A stretch of 64,000 bases of DNA from the NCBI GenBank assembly GCA_003565155.1, contig PXDB01000049.1, positions 1 through 64,000 on the forward strand. Reading direction: 5' to 3'. The stretch's first letter is position 1. Each line of letters opens with the position of its first letter. The notes beneath the pieces are model-generated. The model saw only the letters and a program-made list of their open reading frames with translations. It made no database searches and was not told the origin of the DNA. The position numbers were made by a program, and so were the translations under genes. This document shows positions 39,829 to 46,724 of this stretch, piece after piece. This stretch comes from Nitriliruptoraceae bacterium. GTDB lineage: Bacteria; Actinomycetota; Nitriliruptoria; Nitriliruptorales; Nitriliruptoraceae.

Positions 39829-42105
39829 TCACAGCTGCCCTCGGTCCAGGCCCGACATGGTCGTGGCGATGGGGCGCAGGTGGTCGTACCACGCCTGCTC
39901 CGCGGGGCGTCGCCCACCGTCGGGGTCCAGCATCTCCCGGAACCGCGACAGGGGCGTGAAGGTGATCCTGCCCTGGACCAGCCCGCACATCGCGCTCTCC
40001 GGCGCCTCGCTCTCCAGGGTCGACAGCATGTGGTCCACGCACCGCACCGCGAAACGGGTGGCCTGGATGCGGTCGAAGGGGCTCGGGTCCCCACCCTGCT
40101 GGACGTGGCCGAGGATCGACTGGCGGACGTCGAACAGCCCGCCGCCCTCCTTCTCGAACAGCGCCCACAGGAAGGGCGTGGTGTACACATCGTCGGCACC
40201 CTCTCCGCGGATGATCACCCCCAGCCGCTGACCGCCACGGAACCGCTCGGTGAGGCGTTCCACGTCGTCCTTGAGCAGGTCGAGGGTGATCCCCTCCTCC
40301 GGGGTGTAGACGAACTCCGCCCCTGTGGCCAGGCCACCGGCCAGGGCGAGGTAGCCCGACTCCTTGCCCATGACCTCCACCACGAACACCCGGGTGGAAG
40401 CCACGGCCGACTGCTTGATCTTGTCCACGTCCTCCACGATGGCGTTCAGGGCCGTGTCGGCGCCGATGGTGAACTCCGTGGCGGGGATGTCGTTGGAGAT
40501 GGTCATCGGCAGGCACACGATGGGCAGGTCGAGCTCCGGGTGGCGCTTGCGCGCCTGGTGGAGTGCCTCGGCCGTGACGTAGCCGTCGAAGGTGCCGAGC
40601 ATCAGCAGCCCGTCGATGCGGTGCTCGGTGATGGCCCGTGCGATGCCCTCGAGGTCGGTCCGGCCGGGGGTGCACCGCTTGGTGCCGAGATCCGCCCCGC
40701 CGTGGGAGACCCAGCCGTGCACCGACATCCAGTCGAGCTCCTCCACGTGACCGTCACGCAGTCCCGGGAAGCCGCCCTTGACCCCCAGCGCGACGTGACC
40801 ACGGTCGAGGATGTAGCGCACCGCGGCACGCACCCCGGTGTTCATCCCTGGTGCCAGACCCCCGCCGTGGACGATGGCGATCCGCCTGGACTCCCCGCCC
40901 TCCTCGTGGGTGCGTGGGCGCCCGCGCACCAGGGTGCGCATCGTCTCGTAGGCCTCGACGAACCCCGGGCCACGCAGCTGCATCGCCTCGTCGTAGCGCT
41001 TCTCCTTCAGCAGCCCCGCGACGGACCGGGTGCGCTCCACCGCGTCCATCAGCGGCGAGGTCACGATCCGGTTCTCGCGGATGCCGACCAGCTGCGCCTC
41101 CTGCGCCGCGCTGCCGGCGGCGAGCTCCTGGACGGCGTGGTAGCCGCAGCGGGAGGCCAGGACCCGGTCGAAGGCACTCGGCGACCCGCCGCGCTGCACG
41201 TGGCCGAGGATCGTGACGCGGGTGTCCTCACCGAGCCCCTCGGCCAGGATGTCGCGGACCCGCTCGGAGGTGATCGAGACCCCGTAGCGGTCACGGGCCC
41301 CCTCGGCCACCACGACGATGTTCTGGCGCCGGCCGTACTGACGCCCCGTGGCCACGGTGCGCCGCAGTGCCTCCTCCCAGCTGGCGGTCTGCGGGGGGCG
41401 CTCAGGGATGAAAACCCACTGGGCGCCGGTGGCCAGGGCCGACATCAGGGCGAGGTAGCCGCAGTTGCGCCCCATCACCTCGATGACGAAGGAACGCTGG
41501 TGGCTCGAGGCGGTGGAGTGCAGCGCGTCCAGGGCCTCGGTGATGCGGTGCAGGGCGGAGTCGGTCCCGACGGTCATGTCGGTGCCGAACATGTCGTTGT
41601 CGATGGAGCCCACGATGCCAACCAGCTGGAGCACCGGATGGCTGTCCGCGGTCTCCTGCTCGAGCTGGCCGGCTTCCACGAGCTCCCCCAGCAGCTCCGG
41701 CCACTCGCTGGACAGCAGGTTGGCACCGGTGAGCGAGCCGTCCCCGCCGATCACCACCAGCGCGGTGATGCCGCGCGTGACGAGGTTGAGCGCGGCCTTG
41801 CGGCGGCCGTCGCGGGTGCGGAACTCCTCGCTGCGGGCGGTCCCGATGGCGGTGCCACCGCGGTGCAGGATCCCACCGACGTCCGAGGAACCGGCCTTGA
41901 GGATCGCGTCGCCACCCTCGACCATGCCGACGTAGCCCTCGTGGATGAGGTAGGGCTGGATGTCCAGGGCGAGCGCCGTGCGGACGACGGCACGCACGGC
42001 GGCGTTCATGCCGGCGGCATCGCCGCCGCTGGTCAGGACACCGAGGCAGTGCGGCTTCGTGGGGGCGTTGGCGGGCGCGTCGGTCACCGGGGTCCTCCGG
42101 GTCAT
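39829..42105 (-). CDS. Fused two-domain (eukaryotic-type) ATP-dependent 6-phosphofructokinase
   Basis: Two PFK domains in one ORF. N-half: IGGDGSLTGA, GIVGSIDNDMFGTDMTVGTDSALHRI, SSHQRSFVIEVMGRNCGYLAL. C-half: LGTFDGY, LPMTISNDIPATEFTIGADTALNAI. Confidence 0.94.
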   Translation of the reverse strand: MTRRTPVTDAPANAPTKPHCLGVLTSGGDAAGMNAAVRAVVRTALALDIQPYLIHEGYVGMVEGGDAILKAGSSDVGGILHRGGTAIGTARSEEFRTRDGRRKAALNLVTRGITALVVIGGDGSLTGANLLSSEWPELLGELVEAGQLEQETADSHPVLQLVGIVGSIDNDMFGTDMTVGTDSALHRITEALDALHSTASSHQRSFVIEVMGRNCGYLALMSALATGAQWVFIPERPPQTASWEEALRRTVATGRQYGRRQNIVVVAEGARDRYGVSITSERVRDILAEGLGEDTRVTILGHVQRGGSPSAFDRVLASRCGYHAVQELAAGSAAQEAQLVGIRENRIVTSPLMDAVERTRSVAGLLKEKRYDEAMQLRGPGFVEAYETMRTLVRGRPRTHEEGGESRRIAIVHGGGLAPGMNTGVRAAVRYILDRGHVALGVKGGFPGLRDGHVEELDWMSVHGWVSHGGADLGTKRCTPGRTDLEGIARAITEHRIDGLLMLGTFDGYVTAEALHQARKRHPELDLPIVCLPMTISNDIPATEFTIGADTALNAIVEDVDKIKQSAVASTRVFVVEVMGKESGYLALAGGLATGAEFVYTPEEGITLDLLKDDVERLTERFRGGQRLGVIIRGEGADDVYTTPFLWALFEKEGGGLFDVRQSILGHVQQGGDPSPFDRIQATRFAVRCVDHMLSTLESEAPESAMCGLVQGRITFTPLSRFREMLDPDGGRRPAEQAWYDHLRPIATTMSGLDRGQL

Positions 42106-42576: not shown

Positions 42577-43743
42577 TCACGCGTCGATGGGCTGCGTGGA
42601 CAGCACCCACCGCTCGAAGCCCGGCACGCTGAAGGCCAGGCGCCCACGGCCGGGTGCCCAGCAGATGCCGAGGTCGAGGAGGGCACGCCGTGCCGGGGAG
42701 GCCGCCTGGTGGGTGATGTCCACCACCTCGAGGAGGTCTCCCATCGCGGCCTGTCCACCCTGCTCGGCCAAGGCCTGTACCAACTGCCGCGCCCGCCCCG
42801 AAGGCACCCGCCGCCACCGCGTGGCGTAGAAGTCATCCACCCGCACCCGCACCCGGGCGCCGGCGGCCCGGGCGACGGGCAGCTCGATCCGACCCGGGTC
42901 CGTCGCGAGATCCCACAGAGCCTCGCCCCACAGCTGCACGAACCAGGGGTAGCCGCCGGAGGCCGCGTGGACCTCGTGGACGACCGCGTCATCCACGCTC
43001 GCGTCGGCGACGCGGGCGAAGGGGCGGCGGATCGCCTCCGCGGTGCCCGCGGCGTCCAGCAGCCCGAGATCGACACGGGCCAGCCGCTCGGTGTAGGTCT
43101 GGCCCTCGTCGAAGAGGTTCTCCGCCGCGGTGGGCAGCCCCGACAGCAGGACGCCCAGCGGACGGTCATCCTGCGCTGCGCGGTGCGCGGCCCGCAGCAA
43201 CGGGCCGAGCAGGACGTCCCCGGCCTCGTGGACCTCATCGATCGTCAGCAGGACGCCGCGCTGCGTCCGGGCGGCCAGCACGGCGAGGTCCTCCACCAGG
43301 GTCTCGAACGCCCCGGGATCGGCCGCGCTGCGCAGCCGGGGTCCGTCCGCACCTGCGCGCACCACCGCCAGTCCCTCGAGGCCCGGTGGTCCGGAACCCG
43401 GGGCCAGCTCGCCGACCCCCCGCAGCAGGACGTCGGTGGCCCGCGCCAACTCGGTGTCATCGCGGTCGGCTTCGACGTGGATGGTCGCGAGCCCGAGCTG
43501 GCGGGCACGCTGCCGGACGAAGGCCAGCAGCGCGGTCTTGCCCACCCCCCGGACACCGCGGTAGAGCACGAACTCCGGGGCCACCCCGGCGGACAGCTGC
43601 TCCACCACGATGCGCGCCCGCAGCAACGCGTCCTCCCGGCCACCGAAGTCGGGCGGGATCCGGCCCATCCCCGGCCGGAAGGGATTGGCGCTCGCGGACA
43701 GCGCGTGGGAGCCGACGGAGAGGTCATCGAAGGGGTTCGGCAC
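42577..43743 (-). CDS. AAA ATPase (Orc1/Cdc6-STAND-like)
   Basis: RGVRGVGKTALL Walker A, LLTIDEVHEA Walker B, LLSGLPTAAENL sensor-like, C-terminal winged-helix-like region. Confidence 0.82.
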   Translation of the reverse strand: MPNPFDDLSVGSHALSASANPFRPGMGRIPPDFGGREDALLRARIVVEQLSAGVAPEFVLYRGVRGVGKTALLAFVRQRARQLGLATIHVEADRDDTELARATDVLLRGVGELAPGSGPPGLEGLAVVRAGADGPRLRSAADPGAFETLVEDLAVLAARTQRGVLLTIDEVHEAGDVLLGPLLRAAHRAAQDDRPLGVLLSGLPTAAENLFDEGQTYTERLARVDLGLLDAAGTAEAIRRPFARVADASVDDAVVHEVHAASGGYPWFVQLWGEALWDLATDPGRIELPVARAAGARVRVRVDDFYATRWRRVPSGRARQLVQALAEQGGQAAMGDLLEVVDITHQAASPARRALLDLGICWAPGRGRLAFSVPGFERWVLSTQPIDA

Positions 43744-43916
43744 CCGGTTCCTCACCGCTCGCGGGACCGGGATGCTACTGCTCGCCACCACGACGAGCGC
43801 GCATCCACAGCGCGCCGTGACCAGCCCCGTGTGCGCGCAACGACGCAGGATCTGGGGACGGACTGGGGACGAGCGGTGGACATCCTGTGCCCATCCTGTG
43901 AACTGGACACCACCCC

Positions 43917-43946
43917 TGGACAGCACCGTCGTCGTCGGCGTAGTGT
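43917..43946 (+). promoter_or_regulatory. Candidate sigma-A promoter upstream of the structured region
   Basis: TGGACA (43917-43922) - 18 bp - TAGTGT (43941-43946). Confidence 0.45.
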
Positions 43947-43952
43947 GCTGCT

Positions 43953-44600
43953 CGCCGGCCGGGAACGGACTGCGGATCCCCGGTCAGCCACCCGGGAGTC
44001 GCGTGCAGCGACGACCAGGTGCAGGTGGCGGGCTCCGGCCCACCAGCGCGACGATCGGGCACGTGCCGAGGTCGCGGTGGGACGACCCCGCGAGGGGGAG
44101 GCCACCGGGCGGCCGATCGCGAGATCGACCGTCATCCGATCCGGGCGCTGCACCGCCCGGATGGGACGGGACGCACCGACGCAGCGGGACGTCCCAGCGG
44201 AACGACGCTCCGCGAGGAGCGTCGGGTCGTGGTACCGATCGATCCGGCCGCTGCGAAGCGGTCGGGGAGCGTGGTACGGCGGCGAACGGAGGGGCCCCCG
44301 CGGTCCCGAGGTCCGCGACGGTGTCACCGTACGGTTCGCCACCGCGAGGTGGCGGCACGTCGGACGCCGAGGTGGAGGAGATCGCCGTGCTCGGACACGG
44401 CGGACCAGCCACCGACGGCCGGGTCTGGCCGCACGGCCGGACCTGCCGCCCGGGCTCGCCCGGGTGGTCGCCGCCCCGCCGTCCTGGCCTCGCGGTCCGG
44501 ACGTCCGGGACGGGGAGCCGGGTCCCGCACCGAGAGGAACGTGGGACGCGACGCGACGCCCCGGGAGTCCTGCAACGGACACCGGGGCGTCCTCGTGTCG
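43953..44600 (+). ncRNA. Candidate large structured noncoding RNA with repeated GCGA (GNRA) tetraloop hairpins
   Basis: No convincing CDS in 43744-44652. GCGA-capped stems at 44086-44097, 44114-44127, 44203-44224, 44244-44265, 44337-44354; other helices at 43998-44012, 44129-44169, 44506-44527, 44555-44591. Confidence 0.5.
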
Positions 44601-44652
44601 TCCGCGCTCCGCACGGTGTCCGGCAAGGACGCGCACCATCGCGGGTCCACGC

Positions 44653-45405
44653 TCAACCAGCGATCGCCCGGACGAGCGCTGCTGTCCCGCCGACCGCGGC
44701 CCAGCCCAGGATCGCCGTGCTGATCCGCTCCGCCGGCACCCGGCGGACGACCGCCCGCCCTGCCACCAGGCCGAACAGCAGCAGCACGGCCAACCCCGCA
44801 CCGGCCGTCGCCTGGGCGCCGGTGAAGCTGCCCGCGACGGCCAGCCCCGACAGGGTCAGCACGATCCCCACGGCCCACACCGCTGACAGCGTGGGTCGCA
44901 GCACCCCCGGGTCGTGGTGGCGGTAGAGGATGGCCAGCGGTGGTCCACCGAGCGCCGTGGCCGCACCGGTGAAGCCTGACGCCACGCCTGCCGCCAGCTC
45001 ACGCCGCGGGGTCACCGCCACGTGCCAGCCCACGGCCGATGCGGCCACCGCAGCCAGCAGGATGGCAGCCACGATCGCGGTCAGCCACCGTACGTCCACG
45101 ATCACGACCACCGCGGTGCCCAGAGCGAGCCCGGGGAGCCGGCCGATGATCAGCCGGCGGGCCATGCCCGTGTCGAGGTGTCGTCGCTCCAGCCACGCCA
45201 TCAGCAACGACAGCGGCAGCGCGGCAACCAGCATCGCACCGGGAAGCAGTTCCGGCACGGTCAGCGCCAGCGCCGGCACCGTCGCGAAGGCCGCCCCGAA
45301 CCCGACCGTGCCCTGAGCGATGCCCCCGGCGAAGGCCGCCAGCAGCACACCCACGACCCCGACGATGCCGGCGGCTGCCAGCACCGTGCCCATCGCGCCT
45401 GACAC
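44653..45405 (-). CDS. TauE/SafE-family sulfite exporter-like membrane protein
   Basis: AFAGGIAQGTVGFGAAFATVPAL and GVASGFTGAATALGGPPLAI repeats; polytopic. Confidence 0.85.
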   Translation of the reverse strand: MSGAMGTVLAAAGIVGVVGVLLAAFAGGIAQGTVGFGAAFATVPALALTVPELLPGAMLVAALPLSLLMAWLERRHLDTGMARRLIIGRLPGLALGTAVVVIVDVRWLTAIVAAILLAAVAASAVGWHVAVTPRRELAAGVASGFTGAATALGGPPLAILYRHHDPGVLRPTLSAVWAVGIVLTLSGLAVAGSFTGAQATAGAGLAVLLLFGLVAGRAVVRRVPAERISTAILGWAAVGGTAALVRAIAG

Positions 45406-45572
45406 GTCACCCCTCGCTGTCGGTCTGCCCTCGGCGTCCGCACCGGCAGCGGCGTCCGCGGGCGGGCGACAGGGGCCAGGGACCGCCAGCCTACGGACGG
45501 TGCACTCCACCTCCGCACGGTGGCCGGGCGCGCTAGCGTCGTGGAGCGAACGTCCACCCTGGAGGAACCCTC

Positions 45573-46724
45573 GTGAGGATCGGCATCCTGACCGGCGGCG
45601 GCGACGTCCCCGGCCTCAACCCCTGCATCAAGGCGGTCGTCGACCGCGTCATCTACGACGGCCACGAGGTCGTCGGCTTCCGGCGTGGCTGGGCCGGGCT
45701 CCTCGAGTACGACATCGACGACCCCGAGGGCTCCAACGAGCGGTGCGTCATCGACCTCGACAGGAACCGGGTCCGCGTCATCGACCGTACCGGCGGGACC
45801 TTCCTCCACACCTCGCGGACCAACCCCCAGCGGGTGCGCGACGGTGAGGTGCCGCACTTCCTGAAGGAGCAGGCGCTCGGTGACGGCCCCCACGACTTCA
45901 CCGACCACACGATCCGGGTCCTCGAGCACCTCAACATCGACGCGATGATCCCGATCGGCGGTGACGACACCCTCTCCTACGCGCTACGGCTGCACGAGGA
46001 GGGCTTCCCGGTCATCGCGATCCCGAAGACCATGGACAACGACGTCCACGGCACCGACTACTGCATCGGTTTCTCGACCGCGGTCACCCGCTCGGTGGAG
46101 TTCATCCACCAGCTGCGGACCTCCACCGGCTCCCACGAGCGCATCGCCGTGGTGGAACTGTTCGGCCGGTACTCCGGTGAGACCTCCCTGATCGCGGCCT
46201 ACCTCGCCTCCGTGGACCGCGCCGTGATCTCCGAGGTGCCCTTCGACCCCGAGCGCCTGTCCGCGCTGCTGATGGAGGACAAGCGGCAGAGTCCCTCCAA
46301 CTACGCGATGGTCACCGTCTCCGAGGGAGCGACCTACACCGGCGGGGACATCTACCTCTCCGGCGAGGAGGACGCCTTCGGCCACCGCAAGCTCGGCGGC
46401 ATCGGCCAGCGCACCGGCGAGATGATCAAGGAGCTGACCGGCGAGGACATCATCGTCCAGCAGCTCGGCTACCTGATGCGGTCGGGGCGGCCTGACTCCC
46501 TGGACCTGATGGTGGCCACCAACTACGCGGTCATGGCGGCAGACCTCGCGGTCGAGGGCCAGAAGGGCCGTATGGTCGCCCTGCGCAGCGGCACCTACAC
46601 CAACGTGCCGATCACCGCCACGGGGGACGGTGCCCGCCGGGTGGACGTGGACGCCCTCTACGACAGCGAGGCCTTCAAGCCGAAGCTGCGCCAGGTCGCG
46701 GGGAAGCCGATGTTCCTCTACTAG
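45573..46724 (+). CDS. Phosphofructokinase with PPi-dependent-type motifs
   Basis: [20 protein letters not shown] and [21 protein letters not shown]; Asp in GGDD and Lys in PKTxDND are typical of PPi-PFKs. Confidence 0.88.

Follow-up and report, generated by a model that had tools for sequence, protein, structure and literature searches.

To our knowledge only a handful of bacterial noncoding RNA (ncRNA) classes are comparably large and complex, and the function of nearly all of them is unsolved. GOLLD, a large and ornate RNA, is borne by phages and prophages, and has a conserved 3′ region. OLE RNA, the product of a single-copy chromosomal gene of ∼600 nt, has hosts that include extremophiles and is found mainly in Bacillota (PMC12054373). 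ROOL RNA, of ∼600–660 nt, is ornate and pseudoknotted with covarying kissing loops; its genes are carried by phages and prophages and often lie close to tRNA islands (PMC12286853). Three large ornate RNA classes form unexpected RNA-only assemblies (PMC12286853).

We have studied a stretch of 64,000 nt from a Nitriliruptoraceae genome (the window), in which an RNA of ∼639 nt is predicted on the + strand (43953–44591). It is several hundred nucleotides long and has an extensive secondary structure that covaries and includes pseudoknots, as expected for a large ornate bacterial ncRNA. It is similar to ROOL in length, in its ornate pseudoknotted fold and in its covarying kissing loops, but differs in lying beside ordinary chromosomal genes, in lacking an Rfam match and in being absent from the phage collections searched. 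No match to the RNA was found in 50,697 phage records or in plasmids, nor in IMG/VR using one loop pattern, and we therefore reject a phage or plasmid origin; the phage or prophage encoding of ROOL and GOLLD is not found here. Like OLE it is encoded by a single-copy chromosomal locus of ∼600 nt and occurs in a host group that includes extremophiles, but there is no match to the OLE model and no conserved partner-protein gene beside it. Like GOLLD it is large and ornate, but there is again no model match, and it is the 5′ part that is best conserved across genera. We consider that the RNA resembles OLE, ROOL and GOLLD in kind without belonging to those families, and by analogy it may work as they do.

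The RNA lies in a 909-bp gap (43744–44652). An AAA-type ATPase gene (− strand, start at ∼43743; PF13191 score just under the cut-off) borders the gap with its start, and the other border is the stop codon of a TauE/SafE gene, also on the − strand, which is followed by a phosphofructokinase (PFK) gene on the + strand. The original prediction drew attention to five hairpins with different stems and the same GCGA loop, and these are found just where it placed them, with loops beginning at 44090, 44119, 44212, 44253 and 44344 and stems of 4, 5, 9, 10 (including a G⋅U) and 7–8 pairs, respectively. Would such a cluster be expected by chance? Five GCGA-capped stems of at least 4 pairs lie within 269 nt (44086–44354), whereas 2000 dinucleotide shuffles of this segment gave a mean of 0.085 and a maximum of 3, with five reached in none. 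No second comparable cluster exists on either strand of the 64 kb window. On the + strand of 43953–44600 there are four GNRA-capped stems of at least 5 pairs, compared with a shuffle mean of 0.24 (four reached in 0 of 1000 shuffles); the − strand of this region has no GNRA stem of at least 5 pairs, in agreement with the claim that only one strand gives such loops. The segment 43930–44620 folds with an energy of −441 kcal mol-1 (z = −3.8) on the + strand, and the − strand fold is likewise strong (z = −3.4). Since both strands fold well, folding energy alone cannot select the strand.

Homologues were sought by DNA search, and each of the five genus genomes proved to contain the region, with 67–80% identity over ∼740–800 nt. 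The search was extended into other genera using a second DNA query and the promoter pattern, and a covariance model (R1) of the promoter plus hairpins P1 and P2 was built from 14 sequences. R1 found eight homologues outside its training set, with E-values, necessarily rough for a custom model, of 3e-13 (G027), 6e-9 (G023), 1e-8 (G024), 1e-6 (G022) and 8e-5 to 1e-3 (four genomes of genus g2). A second custom model (R2) gave similarly rough values of 1e-10 to 1e-11 for three of the four g2 genomes, these three being its training data. The total comes to 22 genomes in 10 genera, all Nitriliruptoraceae, plus one tentative case, with RNA lengths of about 280–663 nt. The matching records are metagenome-assembled genomes of this family (class Nitriliruptoria, Actinomycetota), and we take the CSSed of the isolate names to denote soda-lake sediment. 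In a sample of 399 genomes from the phylum there were 13 RNA-model matches, all 13 within Nitriliruptoraceae and none outside. About a dozen genomes of the family, including a complete one (G013), gave no significant match and nothing credible in a repeat search; the RNA may have been lost or have diverged there, or the assemblies may be incomplete. Two candidates were dropped: G059, a weak R1 match (E = 0.008) that the second model did not recover, and G033, where the sequence reads as a coding region. Exact matches to the promoter motif in Zoogloea, Burkholderia, Ferrovum and Lolliginicoccus are taken to be chance because no RNA-model match accompanies them. The tentative case, G019 (locus L139, 1318–1589, − strand), is a reduced version of ∼270 nt with the promoter and the L1 loop and no clear P2/P5 pair, and may be a degenerate copy.

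The homologues allow the predicted fold to be examined for covariation. In an alignment of the five genus sequences made with MAFFT and fitted to no structure, base pairing is kept, with compensatory changes in 51 of 210 predicted pairs; the four g2 sequences have such changes in 28 of 164. The 3′ domains were aligned within genera only. For P1 and P2 across 22 genomes the covariation score is 0.468, compared with 0.201 ± 0.019 for shuffled and ≤0.162 for slid alignments, a control that remains clear even though the alignment had been made to fit the structure. The fraction of paired cells is 85%, as against 69% (shuffled) and ≤50% (slid), and double changes occur in 16 of the 18 pairs. The loop types are strongly strand-asymmetric. 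Among 23 RNAs, GNRA or UNCG sequences cap 97 of the 200 + strand hairpins with tetraloops (65 GNRA, 32 UNCG), compared with 6 of 211 on the − strand (1 GNRA, 5 UNCG). Loops of the same arm interchange between GCGA, GUGA and GAGA, and also between GNRA and UNCG; one g2 arm reads GAGA, GCGA, UUCG and GAGA in four genomes. The original prediction had ascribed the repeated GNRA caps to selection on an RNA fold, and the covariation together with these loop exchanges shows, at the level of sequence comparison, that selection does act on the fold. The locus is almost certainly an RNA gene, transcribed as a discrete RNA.

The predicted RNA is kept in all five genus genomes, and its fold and covariation define a series of domains on the + strand. 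Hairpin P1 (43956–43986; 93.9% of helix cells paired, double changes in 8 of 9 pairs) presents loop L1 with the core CUGCGG (43970–43975), and P2 (43989–44021; 76% paired, double changes in 8 of 9 pairs) presents L2, GUGCAG (44003–44008). The branched domain P3 (44024–44106), placed by the consensus fold, carries CCCC-GCGA-GGGG (44086–44097), which is invariant in the genus. P4 (44108–44133) carries CGATC-GCGA-GATCG (44114–44127), with compensatory pairs and GCGA, GUGA or GAGA loops in the sisters. P5 (44136–44165) has the loop L5, CUGCAC (44148–44153), and P6 (44168–44195), the stem of which covaries, has L6, ACGCAG (44179–44184). Further 3′, P7 (CGACGCTCC-GCGA-GGAGCGTCG, 44203–44224) has compensatory pairs and a GCGA loop that is constant in the genus. 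Arm P8 (44226–44284), supported by consensus pairs, has the tip CCGGCCGCT-GCGA-AGCGGTCGG (44244–44265), where three sisters have UCCG, a loop of the UNCG type. Arm P9 (44322–44369) ends in CGCCACC-GCGA-GGTGGCG (44337–44354), with compensatory pairs and GCGA or GUGA in the sisters. The tip hairpin of arm P10 (44371–44413; hairpin 44384–44401) has a CUCGGA loop that is also present in several other genera, and a three-way domain P11 (44416–44520) is seen in the genus consensus fold.

Three features go beyond those originally noticed: two kissing-loop pairings, a promoter and a regulatory array. In the pairing K1, L1 of P1 is complementary to L6 of P6 as CUGCG/CGCAG or CUACG/CGUAG, and this is concordant in 10 of 10 groups. 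Genus g3 contains both forms, and g9 and g13 also have the A/U form, indicating several independent double changes. In K2, L2 of P2 is complementary to L5 of P5 as GUGCAG/CUGCAC, GUACAG/CUGUAC, GAUGCAG/CUGCAUC, GGUGCAG/CUGCGCC, GGUACAG/CUGUACC, CGUGCAG/CUGCACG or CGACAG/CUGUCG, with GACAG/CUGUC in three g2 genomes. When 12 sequence groups are compared, 70 of the 72 core positions are paired, and none of 20,000 partner permutations did as well (maximum 69); the CUG/CAG core is shared and swapped partners pair at ∼5/6, so the signal resides in about three variable positions. In 20 of 20 genomes tested L5 forms the apical loop on a stem of 4–9 pairs, the stem sequence varying between genera. We derived the pairings using the first 14 sequences, holding out eight later ones. 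These conform to K1 in 8 of 8 cases, and none has more than one mismatch in K2; G023 and G024 have an A⋅C mismatch there. No clear L5 or L6 was found in G017 and G018 (g5). Comparison between the sequences shows that the L1/L6 and L2/L5 complementarities covary across genera.

The promoter comprises a −35 element TGGACA (43917–43922) and a −10 element TAGTGT (43941–43946) separated by 18 nt, both on the + strand. At −35 the sequence is TGGACA, TGGACG or TAGACA in 13 of the first 14 genomes and TTGCGT in the remaining one, followed after 17–18 nt of unrelated spacer sequence by TAnnnT in 14 of 14. The position of the −10 element predicts a transcription start at ∼43953, which is the coordinate at which the original prediction began the RNA. 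At the 3′ end there is a hairpin of the form CCCCGG...CCGGGG (GACGCCCCGG...CCGGGGCGTC, 44555–44591, + strand) without a strong U-tract, which is probably the terminator; a terminator scan based on U-tracts found none. Where the contig extends to the 3′ end of a homologue, an equivalent hairpin is nearly always present. By the position of this hairpin the RNA probably ends at ∼44591. Judged by these elements, the RNA gene carries its own σ70-type promoter sequence and terminal hairpin.

Upstream of the promoter is an array of five 11-bp direct repeats (43852–43906, + strand; units from 43852, 43863, 43874, 43885 and 43896), a probable activator-binding region. In most genomes the units start at −65, −54, −43, −32 and −21 relative to the −35 element. 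Self-matching of the array at lags of 11, 22 and 33 is 0.48, 0.43 and 0.40, compared with a background of ∼0.25. The sisters G001, G002 and G004 have an array one 11-bp unit shorter, and that of g5 is shifted upstream by ∼10 bp. Allowing one mismatch, the pattern CTGTGAMYT-NN-CTGTGAMYT was found in 10 of 35 family genomes, always at the RNA locus and nowhere else. Most homologues have another conserved block, AGCGCGC ... GTGNGCGC (43804–43838 in the window), on the upstream side of the array.

Direct repeats of 11 bp at a fixed distance upstream of the −35 element are the arrangement of a promoter controlled by an OmpR-family regulator. The optimal PhoR site of C. glutamicum is CCTGTGAAaatCCTGTGAA, and the array units, CCTGTGAC-ttn-CCTGTGAC, differ from this at one position per half-site (PMC3353115). 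The other strand of the array shows GTCAC with an 11-bp period, which fits the MtrA consensus GTnAC (PMC6265350, PMC5650626). PhoR and MtrA sites have two repeats, whereas the array has about five and its two-repeat pattern is confined to the RNA locus. Candidate regulators of the OmpR type encoded in the genome include an MtrA-like protein (292.7 bits; cut-off 300) and a PhoB/RegX3-like protein that falls under its cut-offs. Might the units instead be DnaA boxes? There is a resemblance to TTGTCCACC in one unit, and in G026 dnaN has a similar array beside it, but the strict 11-bp phasing and the CTGTGA half-sites are a better fit to OmpR-type sites. We somewhat favor OmpR-family control of transcription of the RNA gene. 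The G026 array (contig C180, locus L087, ∼1500) consists of CGGTGGACAAC-type repeats that resemble one array unit; it lies upstream of the apparent dnaN and is probably a replication origin.

The genes flanking the RNA gene differ between genera. Using Pfam for gene identities inside the window and translations judged by eye outside it, we find PFK, TauE/SafE, a Gfo/Idh-like oxidoreductase and the AAA ATPase recurring nearby in several genera in no fixed order (window 42577–46724, loci L156–L169), and we read this as an ancestral neighborhood. The window also encodes a protein of 758 aa (39829–42105, − strand) in which two phosphofructokinase domains lie in tandem, separate from the single-domain PFK (45573–46724, + strand); the tandem layout is otherwise known from eukaryotic PFK.

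Could the region be something other than a new RNA? The GC-rich inverted repeats, and the long chance open reading frames that run through the gap on both strands, might suggest a DNA element (palindromes, an origin or a telomere-like structure) or a protein-coding region. The strand asymmetry of the loop chemistry rules out the palindrome or telomere that the GCGA mini-hairpins bring to mind, and the compensatory changes and single copy are further evidence against a DNA element. With respect to coding, the original prediction found no convincing reading frame, and the substitutions support this, being even over the three phases (42/42/40 between G000 and G003). Many indels between the sisters are of 1, 2, 4 or 5 nt rather than multiples of three, and the frames open in G000 are interrupted by stops in sister species, with none stop-free in all five. 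We reject coding on either strand on these grounds, and regard a DNA element or coding region as a whole as exceedingly improbable. The size and ornateness would also suit a divergent member of a known family, such as OLE, ROOL, GOLLD, raiA, RNase P, tmRNA or 6S RNA. However, a scan of the window with 4227 models (Rfam 15) gave no match at gathering thresholds and none credible with lax filters, and the 22 homologous loci gave none either, lax filters included; membership of such a family is very unlikely. The RNase P model exceeds its cut-off in 27 of 35 family genomes and its match here is to contig C21, not to this locus; identity as RNase P RNA is rejected, rnpB being elsewhere in the genome.

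If the RNA is new, how would it act? PFK lies directly downstream on the same strand in G010 and G022, as it might if the RNA were a cis-acting leader of a neighboring gene. But the next gene in the window (TauE) is antisense, the neighbors vary between genera, and the RNA has its own terminal hairpin. The mark of a riboswitch or leader, a downstream gene that is conserved and runs the same way, is not found, the neighbors being different and an antisense gene being present in several genera. We reject the cis-acting role, to which we give very little credence. The multi-hairpin layout and the predicted regulated promoter would also suit a regulator that sequesters protein, like CsrB or 6S/Ms1 RNA, with the capped hairpins titrating a regulatory protein or polymerase. 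Yet what recurs in the RNA is a type of structural loop, with GNRA and UNCG interchanging, and not a conserved protein-recognition sequence, and long-range loop pairing would not be expected of a simple sponge; we consider this role unlikely. The two exact covarying loop–loop pairs might alternatively join separate copies into a homo-oligomer, giving an RNA-only particle like that formed by the quaternary kissing loops of ROOL, and a covarying kissing loop has been shown to be intermolecular (PMC12286853). Loop covariation fits pairing within one copy and between copies alike. However, the loop pairs are nested and near each other in primary sequence, making intramolecular pairing simple. Docking of P1 and P2 on P5 and P6 within one copy is the likely arrangement, and we view the homo-oligomer as doubtful, if less so than the sponge.

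The best explanation of the locus is that it is probably a free-standing gene for a ∼640-nt trans-acting structured ncRNA, the founder of a new family. In this free-standing RNA, K1 and K2 would hold the 5′ half together as a compact core, with the capped arms radiating from it. A response regulator of the OmpR/PhoB family, bound to the five 11-bp repeats as a head-to-tail oligomer, would control transcription, and the finished RNA would act in trans rather than as the leader of a neighboring gene. On balance we favor a trans-acting role as a scaffold, the core of a ribonucleoprotein or an RNA particle. More speculatively, and with the odds against it, it may represent a new class of ornate RNA outside phages and Bacillota, assembled through its kissing loops into an RNA-only or RNA-cored particle, and made on demand under its response-regulator array.

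We have found no earlier description of this RNA family in the open-licence literature, and rate it as a new family of large ornate RNA in a bacterial class other than those of the hosts of OLE, ROOL and GOLLD. An unrelated family with loop pairs that can be mutated and compensated would test whether assembly is general among large RNAs, and the built-in regulatory array hints at the signal that may induce the RNA.
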